A DNA stretch of 22,248 nucleotides from a virus. How positions within the stretch are numbered: the stretch's first letter is position 1; each line of letters opens with the position of its first letter. The stretch covers positions 1 through 22,248 of the IMG/VR virus record IMGVR_UViG_3300020473_000135; one strand, 5' to 3'. Both the position numbers and the translations under genes were made by a program. This document shows, one piece after another, positions 6,164-19,542 of the stretch. The notes beneath the pieces were generated by a model. It made no database searches. It saw only the letters and a list, made by a program, of their open reading frames with translations, and had not been told where the DNA came from.

Positions 6164-6380
6164 GATTGAAAGTGAAATAGCAGACGGAATGCAAATTGAA
6201 CCAGGCGACTGTATTGTTGTAATTAAAAAAGATGGAAGTGTTGGTAAGGTGGTTATGCCGGAAATGACTGCAAATATGACTAATTCGTTAGCCTATAAAA
6301 AACTACTTGATGTTTTAGATTTATTGCAACCGGGTGCCAGAAAAGATTTTATAAATTATAATAAAAGGAAAATGCATTAA
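6156..6380 (+). CDS. Small conserved-looking protein, 74 aa, TTG start
   Basis: The TTG at 6156 is used as the start because AAGGAGG sits 6 nt upstream; this gives MSRIESEIADGMQIEPGD. A short beta segment (DCIVVIKKDGSVGKVVMP) is followed by a helix (AYKKLLDVLDLLQPGARKDF) and a basic tail. No family with a known function is recognised. Its stop overlaps the ATG of the mini-DnaE gene by one base (TAATG), so the two are very likely translated together and may act together. It overlaps the zinc-finger gene by 8 bp. Confidence 0.7.
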   Translation: MSRIESEIADGMQIEPGDCIVVIKKDGSVGKVVMPEMTANMTNSLAYKKLLDVLDLLQPGARKDFINYNKRKMH

Positions 6381-6970
6381 TGCCTGATGTTGATATAGAC
6401 TTTTTTGATAGAGATGGAGTATTGAAATTATTCAAACATACTCCTGCTTCTATTATCAAAGATGACAAAGTTGAAAAACATAAAACAGGTGTGTACTTTC
6501 ATGCAGTTCCTGAACACCCAATTACAGGGCATTCAAGTTTGGATTATAAAAAAGCAGAAGATAGAGGATATTTTAAAATTGATTGCTTGAACGTTAGTAT
6601 CTATAAAGATATCAAGTCAGAGCAAGAACTTGTAGAATTAATGATAAAAGAGCCTGATTGGGAAATGCTGAAAGATGCAACTATTGTTGATAAACTTTTC
6701 CATTTAAATGGACATTTTAATATAGTATCAAAACTAGAACCTAAAAACATCGAACAACTTGCGGCTGTGTTAGCAATAATACGTCCTGCTAAAAGAAACT
6801 TGATGCACAAGGATTGGATAGATATACTGAAAGAAGTTTGGGTACGTCCTACAGACGGATCATACTTTTTCAAAAAATCCCATGCTGTTGCTTATGCTCA
6901 AGCAATCGTTGTGCAGATGAATTTGATGTCTCGTGCTAAATATAGTTTTGATGCAACATCAAAAAACTAA
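6380..6970 (+). CDS. Miniature DnaE-like protein (PolIII alpha palm/fingers core only)
   Basis: This 196-aa protein starts at the polymerase active-site motif: residues 2-8 are PDVDIDF, the DnaE palm motif with its two catalytic Asp. A later YFKIDCL supplies a candidate third Asp (compare KFDFLGL of DnaE). VLAIIRPAKRNL matches the DnaE LYRPG-type segment, and YFFKKSHAVAYA matches FNKSHAAAYA of the fingers. The PHP, tandem-HhH, OB and tau-binding parts of a 1,100-1,200-aa DnaE are absent. Whether such a small core can polymerise is unknown; it could be a catalytic minimum, a nucleotide sensor or a decoy subunit. From memory, similar short proteins occur unannotated in marine T4-like phages. 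It is coupled to the small gene upstream and overlaps the next ORF by 20 bp. Confidence 0.7.
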   Translation: MPDVDIDFFDRDGVLKLFKHTPASIIKDDKVEKHKTGVYFHAVPEHPITGHSSLDYKKAEDRGYFKIDCLNVSIYKDIKSEQELVELMIKEPDWEMLKDATIVDKLFHLNGHFNIVSKLEPKNIEQLAAVLAIIRPAKRNLMHKDWIDILKEVWVRPTDGSYFFKKSHAVAYAQAIVVQMNLMSRAKYSFDATSKN

Positions 6971-11498: not shown

Positions 11499-11504
11499 AG
11501 GCAA
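11479..11504 (+). repeat. Three AGGCAA copies at 10-bp spacing
   Basis: AGGCAA occurs at 11479-11484, 11489-11494 and 11499-11504. The last copy runs into the ATG. One-helical-turn spacing suits a protein-binding array or repeated weak ribosome sites (AGG). It overlaps the leader hairpin. Confidence 0.5.
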
Positions 11505-13198
11505 TGAAAAAAGATAAAGAACTAAACGACATAACTAGGCTGTACGATAGATTTATTAGGCAATGTCCAGGCACAGAAGAATACACGCAAAGGCTCGCCG
11601 AAGAAACTCAAATCATCCTTAGACTACGTTTCGTAGACTACTTCATTCAAATATGTGATATACTAGCAATAACCAGAGACATACCTCATATGACTCGCGG
11701 TAGTGCTGGCTCATCACTTGTCTGCTATCTACTTGGCATAACAGACGTAGATCCTGTGCAGTGGGGAATACCCGTGGCACGATTCTTAAATCCAAACAGA
11801 GATGACCTACCTGATGTCGATATTGACTTCCCCCATTATCGTCAGGAAGAAGTGATGAATAGAATATTTGATCGATGGCCCGGACGTAGTGCAAGAATAT
11901 CAAATTACGTGCTCTATCAAGATAAGTCGGCAAGACGTGAAGCGGCAAAACGATTAGGTGCAAAAGGTAATCTCCCTCGCAGGTTTACGTATGAATCTGT
12001 TGGTGTTGATCCAACAGAAGCAAAAAGAATAGAACGAAAACTGAAAGGTAAAAAAAGATGTATATCAAAACACTGTGGAGGAATATTAATGTTTTCAAGA
12101 CAATTGCCAAAATCTTTATTCACGGCAGAAAATCAAATACTATTAGACAAGAACGAAGTGGAGGACCTAGAACATCTGAAAGTGGATGTTTTAGCCAATC
12201 GTGGTTTATCGCAACTCATAGAGATAGATCCAACTATGAGATTAACAGACTATCCAGAAGAAGACCGTGCTACCTCGGACCTATTATGCAGAGGAGACGT
12301 GCTAGGAGTGACTCAGGCAGAAAGTCCGGCGATGCGAAGACTGTTCAGGGCAATACAACCAAAGAGTAGAAAGGATTGTGTATTTGGTACAGCACTAATA
12401 AGACCTGTTGCAATATCCGGACGTAAGAAAGCAACTATGTTCCATGACTGGTCTCAAGAAAGAATGAGTGATACTATTGTATACGAAGACGATGCTATTG
12501 ACAGAATATCGGAAGTGCTTAACATAGACAAGTATGAAGCAGATATGTATCGCAGAGCATTTGCTAAAAAGAACGAAGAGAAATGCATGGAGTTCATGAC
12601 AAGATTAGGAAATCATCCACGTAAAGATGAAATAATCACAATGCTAGAATCGTTATCTGGCTTTGGTTTATGTCGTGCTCATGCTGTAAATTTAGGAAGA
12701 CTAATTTGGGCACTGGCTTATCAGAAAGCACACAATAAAGAAAAATTTTGGCAGGCTTGTTTAAAACACTGTCAAGGATCTTATAGACGTTGGGTTTATA
12801 GAACAGAGGCAAAAAGAGTTGGCATAGATGTTATAACTCCTTCTAATTCTGATAAATGGGATACCCCACAATTTCAATATAGGAAATATGGTTGGTGGAG
12901 TTCAAGAGAATTTATGCCTGGTGTTTATGTAAAAGAACTTTACATGGATAAAGTTGAATTTGCTGGGTTGGTTGCTAATGGCAGAGTGTTTAGAGGAGAC
13001 AAAGGTAGATATGTAACATTTTTAACACTTGGTGTGGGTAACGGACAGTACATAGATGTTACAATTAAAAAACCTTTTTCTTATAGTGATCATGACATAG
13101 TTTGGGGTCAGGGAACAATTAAACACGTTAACAATTCTGACTACATTGATTGCTACGATTCGGAAGGTTTTAAATTAGAAAAATTTATGCATAACTAA
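11504..13198 (+). CDS. DnaE-family DNA polymerase III alpha-like protein lacking the PHP domain
   Basis: This 564-aa protein matches DnaE from the palm onward: TRGSAGSSLV (64-73), RFLNPNRDDLPDVDIDF (93-109; catalytic Asp106 and Asp108), ISKHCGG (187-193), LKVDVL with a candidate third Asp at 228, VLGVTQAESPAM (266-277), ALIRPV, IVYEDD, EADMYRRAFAKK, and GFGLCRAHAVNLGRL (386-400). EAKRVGIDVITP and a C-terminal OB-like segment (FAGLVANGRVFRGDKGRY...) follow. Normal DnaE is about 1,000-1,200 aa: the roughly 300-aa PHP domain and the tau-binding end are missing. All three Asp are kept, so activity is plausible. T4-like phages normally use a family B polymerase, so its role (second polymerase, repair, or the replicase itself) is open. 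It has its own leader with a hairpin. Confidence 0.85.
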   Translation: MKKDKELNDITRLYDRFIRQCPGTEEYTQRLAEETQIILRLRFVDYFIQICDILAITRDIPHMTRGSAGSSLVCYLLGITDVDPVQWGIPVARFLNPNRDDLPDVDIDFPHYRQEEVMNRIFDRWPGRSARISNYVLYQDKSARREAAKRLGAKGNLPRRFTYESVGVDPTEAKRIERKLKGKKRCISKHCGGILMFSRQLPKSLFTAENQILLDKNEVEDLEHLKVDVLANRGLSQLIEIDPTMRLTDYPEEDRATSDLLCRGDVLGVTQAESPAMRRLFRAIQPKSRKDCVFGTALIRPVAISGRKKATMFHDWSQERMSDTIVYEDDAIDRISEVLNIDKYEADMYRRAFAKKNEEKCMEFMTRLGNHPRKDEIITMLESLSGFGLCRAHAVNLGRLIWALAYQKAHNKEKFWQACLKHCQGSYRRWVYRTEAKRVGIDVITPSNSDKWDTPQFQYRKYGWWSSREFMPGVYVKELYMDKVEFAGLVANGRVFRGDKGRYVTFLTLGVGNGQYIDVTIKKPFSYSDHDIVWGQGTIKHVNNSDYIDCYDSEGFKLEKFMHN

Positions 13199-13204
13199 TA
13201 TTAC

Positions 13205-13951
13205 ATGAGCAATCTCACAGTAATATTACCAGCCGCGGGAAAGGGAACAAGATTAAATTTACCTTATCCAAAAGAAATTCTTAGACTAGATAAAGACCAC
13301 GCCCTCATAGATAATTGCTTTAATTTTTTTAGAAACTACGGTAGGAAAGATGTAGAATTTGTTGTGGTTATAAACGAACACAAACCTGAACTACTAACAT
13401 ACCTGGCAAAATACAAAGATAGATTTAACATTTCATTCATATATCAAGATCCAAGCGAACAAGAATACACAGGTGCAATCAAAAGTGCCAAGCCTTTATT
13501 TGGGGAATACAATCTTGTATTGTTACCAGACACAATAATGAAACTAAAAGGCAACAATGATTTATACACATTAGTGAAAGAAGCATTGACTGAAACAGGA
13601 TTTACTTTTTTGTACAAAAAAGAAAACTCAGAAGATGTACTTAAAACCAAAGGTGCTTTGGAAATAAATGGCGAAGGCATGGTTATTAACTATTGCGATA
13701 AGCCAAAAAATTATGTACAATACTATAATGCTTTTTGGTGTGCCTTTGCATTTAGAAGAAGAACATTTAACAGTTGTATTGAGTTCATGGAAAAATCAAC
13801 ACTACAACAAAATGTAGATCCAAAGGAAATACAGAACACACCAATATTTGGATCTAAAGCAATAGAAGTCGAAGACTATATTGATTTAGGTACATGGGCA
13901 GAGATAAGAAGGTTACTGTTAAGTTATGAAGAAAATAATAAGCGACTGTGA
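13205..13951 (+). CDS. Sugar-1-phosphate nucleotidyltransferase-like protein
   Basis: This 248-aa protein starts with the signature LPAAGKGTRL (residues 8-17) followed by PYPKEIL, the nucleotide-binding loop and Lys of GalU/RmlA-type enzymes. LLPDTIM near residue 107 gives the metal-binding Asp, a CDKP block near 163 is the usual EKP region, and VEDYIDLGTW near the end is the D-x-G-T motif. It should join an NTP to a sugar-1-phosphate to give an NDP-sugar for the transferases downstream. Which sugar is not readable. It follows the DnaE-like gene after 6 bp and overlaps the HAD gene by 26 bp, opening a five-gene coupled cassette. Confidence 0.8.
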   Translation: MSNLTVILPAAGKGTRLNLPYPKEILRLDKDHALIDNCFNFFRNYGRKDVEFVVVINEHKPELLTYLAKYKDRFNISFIYQDPSEQEYTGAIKSAKPLFGEYNLVLLPDTIMKLKGNNDLYTLVKEALTETGFTFLYKKENSEDVLKTKGALEINGEGMVINYCDKPKNYVQYYNAFWCAFAFRRRTFNSCIEFMEKSTLQQNVDPKEIQNTPIFGSKAIEVEDYIDLGTWAEIRRLLLSYEENNKRL

Positions 13952-14495
13952 TGGAGTACTATTGGATTGGTGTTTTGCTTTCGATGTATGGATGAGAGAG
14001 CAAGGTTACGTCAGGCTACCAAACACAGATCAATATTTTGAACAATCAAAAAGATATGGCATACCTGAAGCAGAAGCACTAGAACAGGTGCATAAGTTTA
14101 ACGAGACAGGTGTGCTGGGGTTCATACCTGCATACAAAGATAGTGTTGAGTACGTTACAAAATTTGCAAATGAAGGTTGGCGTTTTGAAGTTATCACCAT
14201 GATAGGCAAAGATAAATTTGCCCACAAACTTAGACAAGCAAACCTTAGACATCTGTTTGGAGATGTTTTTGATTATATCTATTGTGCTGGAGATTTTAGA
14301 AAACCTAAAAGCGAAATACTAAAAGAAAGATACGAGGGCAAAGATTATATTTGGATTGAGGATAGAGTTGATTATGCTTTACAAGGAGCAGAGATAGGAC
14401 TTAAAACATTTATAATGGATTGGCCTTATAATAGATCAGAAACAACACTACCGCGTGTAAAAAATTGGAAAGAATTATATGACGCCGCACATTGA
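13926..14495 (+). CDS. HAD-superfamily phosphatase, 5'-nucleotidase-like
   Basis: This is a 189-aa HAD hydrolase. Motif I is SDCDGVLLDW with the nucleophile Asp7 and acid Asp9; motif II is the Thr of FEVITMIG; motif III is the Lys of FRKPKSEIL; motif IV is IEDRVDYA. A small helical cap lies between motifs I and II. The size fits C1-cap 5'(3')-nucleotidases and sugar phosphatases. Next to a purine nucleoside phosphorylase gene it may dephosphorylate (d)NMPs to nucleosides; next to the nucleotidyltransferase it may instead act on a sugar phosphate. It overlaps both neighbours (26 and 17 bp). Confidence 0.8.
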   Translation: MKKIISDCDGVLLDWCFAFDVWMREQGYVRLPNTDQYFEQSKRYGIPEAEALEQVHKFNETGVLGFIPAYKDSVEYVTKFANEGWRFEVITMIGKDKFAHKLRQANLRHLFGDVFDYIYCAGDFRKPKSEILKERYEGKDYIWIEDRVDYALQGAEIGLKTFIMDWPYNRSETTLPRVKNWKELYDAAH

Positions 14496-15237
14496 AGCAA
14501 AGCCGGGTGACTATGCAAAAATAGTATTGATGCCAGGAGATCCATTGAGGGCAAAATGGATTTCAGACAAATATATCGATGACAGTAAACAAGTGAATGG
14601 TGTCAGAGGTATGTTAGGATTCACGGGTAATCTAAGTTGGAATGATAAATGGTTTCCGATATCTGTACAAGGTGGCGGAATGGGTATGCCGTCCAACTCA
14701 ATATATATTCACGAACTTTTTAAATTTTATGGAGTTGAAACTATTATACGTGTTGGTAGTTGTGGTGGAATAGCAGAACACGTTCAAACCGGAGATATAG
14801 TTGCGGCAACCACTGCTTCAACAGAATCTCGTAATACAGTTGTGCGAGGAGTACAGTATAGTCCTTCTGCAGACTGGGATCTACTTAAAAAATTTACAGA
14901 AGTGTGTCCAACCGCTCATGTTGGAACCATTGTTTCAAATGACGATTTCTATCAACAAGATGAGAATTGGTGGAAGGAACATCAAAAGGTTGCAACGTTG
15001 GCTGTTGAGATGGAAACTTATGCATTGTACACAATAGCAAATCAATATAAAAAGAAAGCATTGTCAGTAAACACAGTTTCGGACCATATGCAAAAAACTG
15101 GAATGACCAAAGGAGAGATGACCGAAATTGGTTATGTACCGGGAATACAGTTTGAAAACAAAACAATGTCTCCAGAAGAAAGAGAGACAGGTTTTTCAAA
15201 AATGGTTGAAGCAATATTTGACACATTAACAAAATGA
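14479..15237 (+). CDS. deoD: Purine nucleoside phosphorylase, DeoD type
   Basis: This 252-aa protein is close to hexameric bacterial DeoD over most of its length: TPHIEAKPGDYAKIVLMPGD at the start, phosphate-site Gly20 and Arg24 (MPGDPLRAKW), RVGSCGG (Arg91, Ser94), the ribose-binding EME at 177-179, and catalytic SD at 201-202 followed by Arg235 in PEERETGF. It splits (2'-deoxy)purine nucleosides with phosphate to free base and (deoxy)ribose-1-phosphate. E. coli DeoD has 13 residues between the catalytic Asp204 and Arg217; here the gap is 33, an insertion of about 20 residues beside the active site. It starts inside the HAD gene and overlaps the GT2-like gene by 4 bp. Confidence 0.92.
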   Translation: MTPHIEAKPGDYAKIVLMPGDPLRAKWISDKYIDDSKQVNGVRGMLGFTGNLSWNDKWFPISVQGGGMGMPSNSIYIHELFKFYGVETIIRVGSCGGIAEHVQTGDIVAATTASTESRNTVVRGVQYSPSADWDLLKKFTEVCPTAHVGTIVSNDDFYQQDENWWKEHQKVATLAVEMETYALYTIANQYKKKALSVNTVSDHMQKTGMTKGEMTEIGYVPGIQFENKTMSPEERETGFSKMVEAIFDTLTK

Positions 15238-15971
15238 AAATTTGTATAGCAGTACCAAGCAGAGGGAGAGCGAGAACCTTATGGAAAGGTAAGGATGTAA
15301 GTTTACCTGAACGTTTATGCAGAACTGCATTTAATACTGCCAAAGATCCTGACAATGTTATTGTAAAATATTACATTAACGATGACGACGAAAGTTTAGA
15401 ACAATACAATATAGAGTTCGAACCTTTGTTAAAAAAATATCAAAATAATTTAATTGTTGAAACAGGACCTGATCAAAGCACTGTGCAAAGTTGGAACAAA
15501 ATTTGTGCAGATGTAGATGCCGACCTTTCTATGATTGCAGGAGACGAAATACAATTTATAACACAAGGCTGGGACGAGAGAATGAGAGATACCAGAAGAG
15601 AACATAAGCATGGTGTATATGCAATGAACTTTTGGTTTGACAAATTAAAATATAGCGAAGATTTTAGATATGGTGGTAGCCAACCTGTTGTAACCAGAGA
15701 ATGGTACAAAGCATTAGGGTGGCACTATCCTCCATATTTTTGGCATTGGTACGTAGACACATACACTATGAAACTAGCAATCAAATCAGGCACTTTAGAA
15801 TACAGAGACGATATAGATATTCTACAAAAGAAAATAATGGACGATACTGCCATGAGAAGTAGAACAAACAAAATTAAAGAAAGAGACAAATGGGTGTACG
15901 AGATATTAGTTAATACTACAATGAATGATGACATTGCCAGAATAAAAAAAGCGATCAATGGGACAAAGTAG
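15234..15971 (+). CDS. GT2-like (GT-A fold) glycosyltransferase
   Basis: This is a 245-aa protein. The N-terminus KICIAVPSRGRART is the first strand and loop of a GT-A fold. YYINDDDESLEQY follows as the second acidic turn, and MIAGDEIQF near residue 104 is the metal-binding Asp/Glu position. GWHYPPYFWHWYVDTYTM has the aromatic and acidic residues seen in the acceptor part of GT2 enzymes. It probably transfers a sugar from an NDP donor, perhaps the product of the nucleotidyltransferase gene three genes upstream. No membrane segments are present. It overlaps deoD by 4 bp and the methyltransferase gene by 14 bp. Confidence 0.65.
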   Translation: MKICIAVPSRGRARTLWKGKDVSLPERLCRTAFNTAKDPDNVIVKYYINDDDESLEQYNIEFEPLLKKYQNNLIVETGPDQSTVQSWNKICADVDADLSMIAGDEIQFITQGWDERMRDTRREHKHGVYAMNFWFDKLKYSEDFRYGGSQPVVTREWYKALGWHYPPYFWHWYVDTYTMKLAIKSGTLEYRDDIDILQKKIMDDTAMRSRTNKIKERDKWVYEILVNTTMNDDIARIKKAINGTK

Positions 15972-16656
15972 GCGTATAAAATCTAAGGGTGAGATCAAAG
16001 ATATTCTTTTCAAGGAAGTTAACGAATCAAATAAAAAATTGCTAGAAAAAATTATAGACTTGGATCCAATTACACTTGGAGAAAACAAAATTGATTTGTT
16101 AGGCACAAGAAAAAAATGGCAACAAGACGTAATTGAATTTGTAACTCTTAACGATATGTGGTTGGAATTTGGAGTGAGAGAAGGACAAACTATAAATTGG
16201 CTGTTAGAAAAAATGCCATTGCAAGTAATACATGGCTTTGATAGTTGGGAAGGTCTTCCGGAAGAATGGAACACAGGTGCACAGGTTTGGAAAAAAGGTG
16301 AGATGAACGTTCCTATGCCAAAGTTTACTGAAAACGTAATTTTACATAAGGGTTGGTTTCAAGACACAATAGATCCATGGAAAGCAGAATACAAAAATAA
16401 TATTGCATACCTGCACATAGATAGTGACCTATATAGTTCTGCCAAAACTGTGTTGACAAAACTCAATGATAGAATTGTTCCCGGTACACTTATTGTATTT
16501 GACGAACTTATTAATTTTAGACTTATGCAAAAAATGAATACTTGGACACAGCACGAATGGAAAGCATTAACCGAATGGCGAAGTGAATATAATAGAGAAG
16601 TGACTCCTGTTGCTAGGTCTTCAATGAATCAAGTTGCTTTACGTGTTATTTCTTAG
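15958..16656 (+). CDS. TylF/MycF-like SAM-dependent O-methyltransferase
   Basis: This is a 232-aa protein. MWLEFGVREGQTINWL (about 67-82) is motif I of the TylF (macrocin O-methyltransferase) family, HGFDSWEGLPEEW is its characteristic second block, and YLHIDSDLYSSAKTVL with VPGTLIVFDEL supplies the metal-binding Asp residues. The family methylates sugar hydroxyls, which agrees with a position directly after a glycosyltransferase gene. It closes the coupled cassette begun at 13205. Its 3' end overlaps the convergent SGNH gene by 11 bp. Confidence 0.8.
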   Translation: MGQSRRIKSKGEIKDILFKEVNESNKKLLEKIIDLDPITLGENKIDLLGTRKKWQQDVIEFVTLNDMWLEFGVREGQTINWLLEKMPLQVIHGFDSWEGLPEEWNTGAQVWKKGEMNVPMPKFTENVILHKGWFQDTIDPWKAEYKNNIAYLHIDSDLYSSAKTVLTKLNDRIVPGTLIVFDELINFRLMQKMNTWTQHEWKALTEWRSEYNREVTPVARSSMNQVALRVIS

Positions 16657-17437
16657 ATAACAAATTATTTTCTTTCACAAAGTTACACAATCGTTGACCC
16701 CAATGATGATGTCCTGTTTGATTAGGATGTCCGTCATTTGCTGACTTTACATAACCGGTCATTGCACAATATTCAAAATGACTTTGCACATAATCTTTGT
16801 TAGCAACTTGTACTTTGTGTTCTACACTTGATCTATTCTCTTGTTGCATTTTTATATTTTCTTGTACAAACTCACTACTATCAAAGTTGTAAAAATGTTT
16901 TTTATCAATAGCATCATACCATAATTTTAAATCGGGTCTTTCTTTGCCATTGACTGATTTCGTAGGAGTATCGTTTGTTAAAGCATGATACATTACATAA
17001 GGAATACCATGTAATTTGAAAAAGTTTTGTAAAGTTAAAATATGTTGGTATAGTCTTACTGCTCCATTAAGTTCATGATCAATATCCTTATCACGTGCTA
17101 ACCATTCATGTTGCCATACCGACCAGGTTGCCCATTGATAAGAAAATTTAAGGAGTTCGCCTTTTATGCCACCTTTCTTTTCCTTCGGTGTAACAAAGCC
17201 AGATACATAATCCCATCTATGAGTACTACTCCACCCTATACTTACAAATGTGTCTTTCATTCTTTCAGGATTTGCTAGGAACCAATTAATTGTTGAGTTA
17301 ACGATTCTGTCATTCCCTCTGCCACCTTTTGCTAAATTAATTGTTTCTTCTAATCCAAGCAGTTTTCCCAAATGCTGATGACAACTGTTAAAAACTTTTT
17401 TAGTACTAAAACTGCAACCGTTACTTAGATGTTTCAT
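16646..17437 (-). CDS. SGNH/GDSL-like hydrolase or acyltransferase
   Basis: I place the start at the ATG at 17437 (MKHLSNGCSFS) because AAAGG lies 6 nt upstream and it overlaps the preceding gene by only 17 bp; an in-frame ATG at 17509 would overlap by 89 bp. This gives 263 aa. Block I is NGCSFS with the candidate Ser nucleophile (Ser9), GGRGND near 37-42 is block II, and NDGHPNQTGHHHW near the end holds the Asp-His pair of block V. SGNH proteins in sugar loci remove or add O-acyl groups; a tail-linked esterase is the alternative. It lies behind the GT-B-like gene in a leftward pair. Confidence 0.7.
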   Translation of the reverse strand: MKHLSNGCSFSTKKVFNSCHQHLGKLLGLEETINLAKGGRGNDRIVNSTINWFLANPERMKDTFVSIGWSSTHRWDYVSGFVTPKEKKGGIKGELLKFSYQWATWSVWQHEWLARDKDIDHELNGAVRLYQHILTLQNFFKLHGIPYVMYHALTNDTPTKSVNGKERPDLKLWYDAIDKKHFYNFDSSEFVQENIKMQQENRSSVEHKVQVANKDYVQSHFEYCAMTGYVKSANDGHPNQTGHHHWGQRLCNFVKENNLLSKK

Positions 17438-18347
17438 TAATTGCCTTTCTAATATGTTTCCAGCATTCGCCGTTTTCAAATTCTTCAGTATTCCATTGAC
17501 ACATGGCAATTTTTTTCATCCATGCTGTCCTATCACCCCTGTATGGATTTTCAACTTCTGATAATTTTTTAGAACTAACTTCGTACACCATGCTACCAGA
17601 ATCACAAGCAATATTAGGTGTGCCCGAAAGTACAGCATCAATTCCTGTGCCACTGGTGTATGTTACTGTGCACCATGCTTTTGCTATATCGTTTTGTATT
17701 GGTTCATATTCTCCTGTATTAAGATTAGTACCTTTCCAGATAACATCTTTAAGTTCAGCACACTCTTCTTCTAATGCTTTGTGATTTAATTTTTTTCTAT
17801 ATAAAGGGTGCGGTCTAACTATAATCTTTCTGTCAGTATGTTGTCTCAGTTCTTTTATAGTATCACGTGTCCAATCAAATATATCTAATCCACGTAAACT
17901 TGCATCACCAACTTTTTGCATACACAGTACAATATGATCTCCATTATCTTTCCATTTTTGATTTACATCATACTTGTTTCGTTCAAATACTTTTTGATAT
18001 CGTGTGGGATCTACGTAGTCAAATCCCCAATCTGCATCATCCCATAGGAATCCGTTAACCCCCACTCTAAATTCATCATGCTCATGAGTTGTAATAGATC
18101 TACCTATTAGTTGTGTCTCTAATTGCACATAAGGAATTCCGCTGTTTATTATTACACCCTTGCCTCTGTGTTGAGGACGTTTACGATGTATCTTATAACT
18201 TCCAAATATTACTGCGGCATCATAGTCTATGGGTTGATAACTTTTTCTTTGCACAACTTCATCGTTGGTAATGCCTTGTGCAAATGCTTGTAATTTCTTA
18301 AGGTAATATCCTGTGTTTGCTGAATCTGTGATTATGGCAACTTTCAT
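17421..18347 (-). CDS. GT-B/capsule-polysaccharide-type glycosyltransferase (KpsS/Kdo-transferase-like)
   Basis: This is a 308-aa protein. The N-terminus MKVAIITDSANTGYY is a Rossmann-like strand and loop. RPHP at 178-181 and TYTSGTGIDAVLSGTP at 229-244 are the paired motifs of capsule-polysaccharide synthesis proteins and related GT-B transferases, where the latter loop binds the sugar-nucleotide donor. It probably adds a sugar to a host or phage glycan; donor and acceptor are unknown. It leads the leftward pair with the SGNH gene. A TAAATA motif ends 5 nt before its ATG, and no Shine-Dalgarno is visible, so a leaderless message is possible. Confidence 0.65.
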   Translation of the reverse strand: MKVAIITDSANTGYYLKKLQAFAQGITNDEVVQRKSYQPIDYDAAVIFGSYKIHRKRPQHRGKGVIINSGIPYVQLETQLIGRSITTHEHDEFRVGVNGFLWDDADWGFDYVDPTRYQKVFERNKYDVNQKWKDNGDHIVLCMQKVGDASLRGLDIFDWTRDTIKELRQHTDRKIIVRPHPLYRKKLNHKALEEECAELKDVIWKGTNLNTGEYEPIQNDIAKAWCTVTYTSGTGIDAVLSGTPNIACDSGSMVYEVSSKKLSEVENPYRGDRTAWMKKIAMCQWNTEEFENGECWKHIRKAINETSK

Positions 18348-18483: not shown

Positions 18484-19542
18484 ATGATTAACAAGCGACT
18501 GTTTAAACAATACGGTATAGACATCGAAAAAAACCTTAAACTAGAGGTCAGGTGTCCTAGGCCCTACGACACAGTTTTGATCGACAAGAACGGCAGTGTG
18601 TATGCCTGTGAATGCCAATCGTGGTTGCCACAGTCTATAGGAAACCTGCAGGTAAAATCCCTAGAGGATATGTTCGCAGGAGCAATGGCAGGTGAACTGC
18701 GAGACAGCATGGCCGACGGAACATACAGGTATTGCAACAACAAGCAGTGTGCATACCTTAAGGACACAGAGATATTGAAGAGGCGTAGTGCCTGGAACAG
18801 GGCACCGCAGGTGTTGATCAGGCACATCAGGCTGGCCATGGACGAGAGTTGCAACCTCAAATGTCCAAGTTGCAGGACCGATCAAATATTGCACACATCG
18901 GGATCTCAGTTCGAGATGCGTAAAGGATTGGTCAAAAAAGTATTGGAGTACATCAAGCACAGGATCAAGATGCCAAACAGTCTGCGTGTACACATAGGAT
19001 CCGATGGTGATCCTTTCGCGAGTTTGATATACAGGTATTTCATGAAGGAGATGGCCGCATATGACTCCGACTACCTGGAATATACAATGCAGACAAATGG
19101 ATTATTGGTCAAACAGTTGAGCAACAGGGTTCCTCACATATTCAAAAGAATGAGCATATTGGCTGTCAGCATAGACGGAGCAACAAAAGAAACATACGAA
19201 AAACTGAGACTGGGTGGCACCTGGGAGAAGATAAACGAGAACCTACGCCACATACAGGAACTGGCACATCACTATGACTTTGTGTTCCAGATGCACATGG
19301 TTGTACAGGCAGACAACTGGCGTGAGATGCCTGCGATGGCGGCACTGGCTAGAAGTGTTGACGCGGAAGTTCAATTCAATCCAATAGAGGATTGGCAAAC
19401 TTTTGATAACTTCGAAGAGAAGAGATGCCCGGAGGAACTGGACGAATTCAAATCAGTGTGTGATGAGGTTGCGAGGCAGGATCATGTGTATGCTTGGTTC
19501 AAAACAAACACAGTGTACAGAGAGTTTGTTCAACCCGACTAA
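18484..19542 (+). CDS. Radical SAM enzyme with N-terminal SPASM-like cysteine region
   Basis: This is a 352-aa protein. CNLKCPSC at 123-130 is the CX3CX2C motif that holds the SAM-binding 4Fe-4S cluster, and the beta/alpha strands that follow (RVHIGSDGDPF, YTMQTNGLL, ILAVSIDGATKETYEKLR) fit the radical SAM barrel. Residues 24-92 contain Cys24, Cys42, Cys44, Cys84 and Cys89 around GSVYACECQSW and IGNLQVKSLEDMF, the wording of a SPASM auxiliary-cluster domain. SPASM domains normally follow the barrel; here the region precedes it. The substrate is unknown (peptide or sugar modification are options). The gene is visibly GC-richer than its surroundings, suggesting recent transfer. It overlaps the next, convergent gene by 4 bp. 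Confidence 0.85.
   Translation: MINKRLFKQYGIDIEKNLKLEVRCPRPYDTVLIDKNGSVYACECQSWLPQSIGNLQVKSLEDMFAGAMAGELRDSMADGTYRYCNNKQCAYLKDTEILKRRSAWNRAPQVLIRHIRLAMDESCNLKCPSCRTDQILHTSGSQFEMRKGLVKKVLEYIKHRIKMPNSLRVHIGSDGDPFASLIYRYFMKEMAAYDSDYLEYTMQTNGLLVKQLSNRVPHIFKRMSILAVSIDGATKETYEKLRLGGTWEKINENLRHIQELAHHYDFVFQMHMVVQADNWREMPAMAALARSVDAEVQFNPIEDWQTFDNFEEKRCPEELDEFKSVCDEVARQDHVYAWFKTNTVYREFVQPD

Follow-up and report, generated by a model that had tools for sequence, protein, structure and literature searches.

The virus record IMGVR_UViG_3300020473_000135 was analyzed over its 22,248 bases (the window), which contain a cassette of five overlapping open reading frames (ORFs) on the plus strand at 13205-16656: a sugar-1-phosphate nucleotidyltransferase (NTase), a HAD phosphatase, a DeoD-type purine nucleoside phosphorylase (PNP), a glycosyltransferase (GT) and a TylF-like methyltransferase. 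We found that the first three genes, NTase-HAD-DeoD, recur together in many phages and almost certainly represent a unit with a shared function. This unit is probably a mobile three-gene module making a nucleoside diphosphate (NDP)-pentose from purine nucleotides, most likely NDP-ribofuranose. A previous analysis of the letters alone (the sequence-only reading) had proposed a nucleoside-fed glycan pathway encoded by all five genes. Recomputed ORF coordinates agreed exactly with its successive overlaps of 26, 17, 4 and 14 bp, and its gene identities were also recovered, except that the label "GT2" could not be established for the GT, which had no Pfam match.

The contig scans used short-pattern matching and kept at most 80 loci (numbered with the prefix L below), and all counts are samples rather than a census. 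Scanning viral contigs with one DeoD sequence gave no match, whereas alignment queries recovered DeoD loci. The NTase query identified 68 IMG/VR contigs, the majority of which continue to HAD and DeoD. In the DeoD-led scan, for which more than 1.3 kb of upstream sequence was required, NTase and HAD occurred directly upstream, in the same order, in 74 of 75 distinct phage DeoDs. Thus, the gene order in related phages, which the sequence-only reading had suggested examining, is clearly kept for these three genes. This DeoD query had been built from linked copies, so a second scan was run with an alignment headed by a bacterial sequence, the DeoD of the Rhodobacteraceae genome to which L072 belongs. 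NTase-HAD was again found upstream in 65 of 70 loci with profile-confirmed DeoD; two of the others end at the contig edge after HAD and in three DeoD is unlinked: L297 (the L159 contig again), L339 and L356, the last being only a distant relative with 23 bits.

Altogether, 69 distinct complete trios were found in approximately 20 lineages (the NTases form 31 groups at 90% identity and 20 at 80%), and their common order implies that the linkage is not due to chance. The carriers are many uncultivated phages, mostly marine. Pairwise identities correlate between the genes of the trio (Mantel 0.71-0.73, with 0 of 499 permutations as high), and the gene overlaps are retained, 20 bp being the commonest for NTase/HAD and 17-26 bp accounting for most HAD/DeoD junctions. 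NTase and HAD are separated by a 210-aa gene of unknown kind in L137 (L137:3808-4440) and L140, and HAD and DeoD by a radical-SAM gene in L146 (L146:2922-4031); these rare insertions were the only two types observed within trios.

The genes around the trio vary. Its outer neighbors fall into 18 families upstream and 17 downstream, with one-offs included and at least about eight families per side recurring. They are mostly glycan genes, and the recurrent ones include GT11, GT8, GT6, GT2-like, NDP-sugar epimerase, DegT aminotransferase, HldE-like cytidylyltransferase and sulfotransferase. The GT family of the window (phrog_14945) is at most one position away from the cassette in 10 contigs, in 9 of them directly downstream, and the five-gene order is complete in the window, L070, L045 and L046, of which the last two are near-identical. 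GT and methyltransferase are interchangeable partners outside the conserved core. Together with the 74 linked DeoDs, the fixed order of the trio amid variable, mostly glycan flanks disfavors the plain alternative raised by the sequence-only reading, that salvage and glycan genes are simply neighbors.

Further support came from a locus with a different arrangement. In the separate phage contig L339 (L339:3001-5215), 4-bp overlaps join DeoD (44% identical to the window protein), a very divergent NTase (24% identical, YIDLGTW retained) and a gene of 303 aa that matches no Pfam family, and HAD is missing; a GTP cyclohydrolase gene follows this set. That DeoD is paired here with a different NTase is an argument for the NTase using the DeoD product.

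With regard to the individual enzymes, the window NTase scored 32.9 bits on PF00483 (gathering cut-off 21.2) and contains all motifs of this type (GxGxR...K-E, the catalytic D and D-x-G-T). Residues G12, G14, R16, K23, E24, D109, D165-K166-P167 and D227-L-G-T-W were invariant among 31 relatives. Profile searches against solved structures gave only weak IspD matches for NTase and chance matches for HAD; as these were uninformative, a fold search was needed. The AlphaFold model of NTase (pLDDT 87) has a GalU/RmlA-type fold, and the closest solved folds are glucose-1-phosphate uridylyltransferases (Z ~20, root-mean-square deviation (rmsd) 2.9, 227-231 residues aligned). The cassette NTase resembles GalU/RmlA nucleotidyltransferases in fold and motifs but differs from them in sequence (~17% identity) and in having DKP at the usual EKP position. 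EKP is the usual motif of hexose nucleotidyltransferases, and we treat its replacement by DKP as a lead only. NTase was absent from all 50,697 GenBank phage records (E 1e-5). Bacterial relatives were rare, being detected in 1 of 295 genomes of a Rhodobacteraceae family sample and, at phylum level, in 1 of 398 and 3 of 297 genomes of two samples, and their gene settings did not reveal the substrate.

In HAD, the catalytic motifs of the superfamily (DxD, K, D) are present as invariant D7, D9, K128 and D146. The protein belongs to the same sequence family as the T4 gene 30.2/NT5C-like phage HADs (phrog_420) but forms a distinct branch, and a phiM12 homolog is annotated as 30.2/NT5C. In L250, another 30.2-like HAD (32% identical) lies just upstream of the cassette, which indicates that the HAD of the cassette is its own copy and not the generic one. 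The HAD model (pLDDT 91) best matched 3bwv, a deoxyribonucleotidase-like protein (Z 18.3, rmsd 2.2, 160 residues), followed by GmhB-type phosphatases (Z 16.7 and 16.4) and human dNT (Z 15.9). The GmhB matches are consistent with another possibility, that HAD acts on a sugar phosphate (being GmhB-like or similar to the ribose-5-phosphate phosphatase domain of ribofuranosyltransferases) and not on nucleotides, with DeoD providing no more than a share of the donor or a small flux. NTase-HAD pairs without DeoD (L068 group, L273) and the HAD phosphatase that follows PRPP (5-phosphoribosyl-1-pyrophosphate)-dependent transfer in known bacterial ribofuranose addition (PMC11127046) would also fit. We nevertheless consider this quite unlikely, since the best fold match is a deoxyribonucleotidase-like protein, NT5C is among the weak Pfam matches (18.9 bits for the window HAD versus a cut-off of 24.8; weak matches in 22 of 25 members, the best at 1.3e-5), HAD homologs in other phages are located among DNA-metabolism genes (rnh, phoH, MazG, RuvC, dCMP deaminase), and no phosphoribosyltransferase Pfam domain was seen among the cassette genes.

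The window DeoD exceeded the NF004489 cut-off (249.4 versus 230 bits) and scored slightly below that of TIGR00107 (222.6 versus 232.25). In E. coli PNP numbering (reference sequence verified against PDB 1pr0), catalytic D204 and R217 and the phosphate/ribose residues H4, R24, R43, R87 and E181 were kept in all 70 phage DeoDs, with small changes at S90, V178, E179 and S203. Judged by family score and active-site residues, the phage protein is a DeoD-type PNP, and phosphorolysis is its predicted reaction. It shares family and active-site residues with E. coli DeoD (1ecp/1a69) but, unlike it, belongs to a phage branch fixed to NTase-HAD. The window copy also has an insertion of ~20 residues after the SDH motif, which is common to L011, L039, L043 and L070 and absent in most relatives. 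Among GenBank phage records, DeoD matches occurred in unannotated or bacteria-like records and were at most 49% identical. One phage PNP has been described, in a Psychrobacillus phage (PMC8779076). A role of DeoD as S-adenosylhomocysteine/methylthioadenosine nucleosidase serving the methyltransferase was also considered and rejected: the models for these nucleosidases scored much lower than DeoD, and the methyltransferase is missing in most cases.

From linkage, order, intact catalytic residues, folds and glycan setting, we infer the substrates, the nucleotide used and the acceptor as follows. HAD would dephosphorylate a purine (deoxy)nucleoside monophosphate at the 5' position to give the nucleoside, which DeoD would convert with phosphate to the base and alpha-(deoxy)ribose-1-phosphate. 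NTase would then combine this pentose-1-phosphate with a nucleoside triphosphate to yield NDP-pentose and pyrophosphate, drawing the reversible phosphorolysis forward, and the adjoining GT, which differs between phages, would move the pentose onto a glycan or protein. In the lineage of the window, the TylF-like enzyme may methylate the transferred pentose. DeoD-type PNPs take both ribo- and deoxyribonucleosides and are specific for purines; purine nucleosides are therefore favored over pyrimidine nucleosides as the source. As for the sugar, we consider ribose more likely than 2-deoxyribose, given that NDP-2-deoxyribose is expected to be labile and much less stable than NDP-ribose. The nucleoside-fed glycan pathway of the sequence-only reading is thus the best-supported explanation, and we regard it as fairly probable: the linked trio agrees with it, the GT and methyltransferase fall outside the conserved core, and host DNA as the source of the sugar is its weakest part.

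Several observations weigh against such a pathway. First, that NTase uses a pentose-1-phosphate is something we infer, and no NTase relative with known pentose specificity was found. Second, the two activities also occur apart. In L159 (L159:5052-7301), DeoD is present without NTase/HAD, and its neighbors read as DHFR- and thymidylate synthase-like genes; the sequence-only reading had held that a DeoD unlinked to sugar genes would speak against its proposal, and this single case stands beside the 74 linked ones. In L056-064, NTase directly precedes a GT-B-like gene of a family otherwise found after DeoD, and since HAD-DeoD is missing there, these phages must obtain the sugar phosphate from the host. 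NTase-HAD without DeoD was observed in L068 and its relatives and in L273, and NTase without DeoD beside it in the bacterial loci L071 and L072. No PNP_UDP_1 gene was found in the DeoD-less NTase phage contigs, which are fragments or of unknown completeness. The NTases without DeoD would receive their sugar phosphate from elsewhere, possibly as hexose-1-phosphate. Third, the cassette of the largest group is located downstream of nrdA, nrdB and the gene for a RuvC-like resolvase, usually separated from them by at least one further gene, and this proximity also fits nucleotide metabolism. As side observations, another PNP_UDP_1 match is present elsewhere in the L159 contig, and in L068 a dNK/AAA_28 kinase directly precedes NTase-HAD.

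These points could be accommodated if HAD and DeoD served purine salvage or nucleotide balancing, NTase made an ordinary NDP-hexose for the GT, and the block were transferred as one transcript. The nrdA/nrdB group, the nucleotide-type locus of L159, the direct NTase-GT pairs of L056-064 and the proximity of the NTase fold to hexose NTases are all consistent with this explanation. We consider it unlikely, because the flanks have been swapped many times with the trio remaining intact, glycan genes occur on both sides in many lineages, and DeoD of L339 is coupled to a different NTase.

The Rhodobacteraceae locus L072 (L072:2915-8821), in which the NTase homolog overlaps a TPR/OGT-like gene beside flagellin and DeoD is located elsewhere in the genome, is a possible flagellin glycosylation locus. 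This locus and the many surface-glycan-type genes around the cassette make it highly improbable that the donor glycosylates phage DNA or another phage molecule instead of a surface glycan or protein, even though phage GTs often modify DNA and 7-deazaguanine- or pterin-type genes are near in L339 (GTP cyclohydrolase) and L068 (L068:4387-9297, in a 230-kb phage contig with genes that read as QueD/QueE-like and GTP-cyclohydrolase-like).

The proposed NDP-pentose route has parallels in known systems. In the LipP-LipM-LipN branch of A-90289/muraymycin-type antibiotics, a nucleoside phosphorylase is followed by a nucleotidyltransferase acting on a pentose-1-phosphate and then by a glycosyltransferase (PMC4902027). 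The phage cassette likewise combines phosphorylase, NTase and GT in one locus, a match by enzyme role. However, LipP acts on 5'-amino-5'-deoxyuridine made by LipL/LipO, whereas the cassette, in a phage glycan setting, pairs a DeoD-type purine enzyme with a HAD phosphatase. As neither a LipL-type oxygenase/dioxygenase nor a LipO transaminase was found in the window cassette, it resembles the LipP/LipM/LipN logic and is not classed as a member. Bacterial ribofuranose addition is PRPP-dependent, involving gPRT with a HAD-type PRP domain, and polyprenyl-phosphoribose systems are also described (PMC11127046). Such systems similarly introduce a pentofuranose into glycans with the involvement of a HAD phosphatase, but their donor is PRPP or lipid-phosphate ribose and neither phosphorylase nor NTase takes part, whereas the proposed phage donor is an NDP-sugar. 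Our literature search found no published description of the NTase-HAD-DeoD trio. By analogy, the pathway logic would be that known from antibiotic biosynthesis, in a route that appears not to be known for phage glycans.

We see roughly an even chance that phages carry a dedicated, transferable pathway from purine nucleotides to an NDP-pentofuranose glycan donor, which would be an alternative to the PRPP route and would link host nucleic-acid breakdown directly to glycan building. If so, infection would feed nucleotide sugars into glycan synthesis, bypassing host sugar pathways, and pentofuranose would enter glycans via an NDP-sugar rather than via PRPP as in the described ribofuranose systems (PMC11127046). 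The trio would then offer a defined three-enzyme in vitro test and a marker for a new nucleotide sugar. It would also provide a clue to the products of large glycan clusters in marine phages; such clusters have been reported in pelagimyophages and ascribed to host-surface change (PMC7029224).

The features of the cassette and of the glycan neighborhood to its right are listed in Table 1. Rough dN/dS estimates against the nearest relative, L070, for which dS was saturated, were ~0.06 (NTase), ~0.01 (HAD), ~0.19 (DeoD), ~0.10 (GT) and ~0.20 (methyltransferase); these ratios indicate that all five genes are under purifying selection.

Table 1. Cassette genes and right-hand neighbors in the window, with profile matches.
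Feature	Position	Strand	Profile match
NTase, sugar-1-phosphate nucleotidyltransferase, core gene 1	13205-13951	+	PF00483 6.6e-8
HAD phosphatase, T4 30.2/NT5C-like group, probable 5'-nucleotidase, core gene 2	13926-14495	+	phrog_420 2.5e-25
DeoD-type purine nucleoside phosphorylase, core gene 3	14479-15237	+	NF004489 2.7e-74, TIGR00107 4.8e-66
GT, likely consumer of activated sugar	15234-15971	+	phrog_14945 6.7e-19
TylF/Methyltransf_24-type methyltransferase, possible sugar tailoring	15958-16656	+	PF13578 2.3e-11, PF05711 1.8e-10
DUF6071 ORF, right-hand glycan neighborhood	16646-17509	-	PF19547 8e-10
Weakly surface-polysaccharide-like ORF, right-hand glycan neighborhood	17421-18347	-	TIGR04396 1.8e-7, below its cut-off

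Elsewhere in the window, the DnaB helicase is 52% identical to DnaB of PA5oct-like large Pseudomonas phages. The cassette stands after a DNA polymerase III alpha-like ORF. Two separate ORFs (6380-6970 and 11504-13198) match DNA polymerase III alpha-like phage families, and the second spans the profile only in part, which suggests a split or reduced polymerase. A sodium:solute symporter gene (PF00474) lies beside the cassette or one gene beyond in L248 (L248:7671-9113), L257, L259 and L103. A radical SAM protein with a SPASM/twitch domain is encoded near the cassette in the window (18484-19542) and likewise in L255 and L070.

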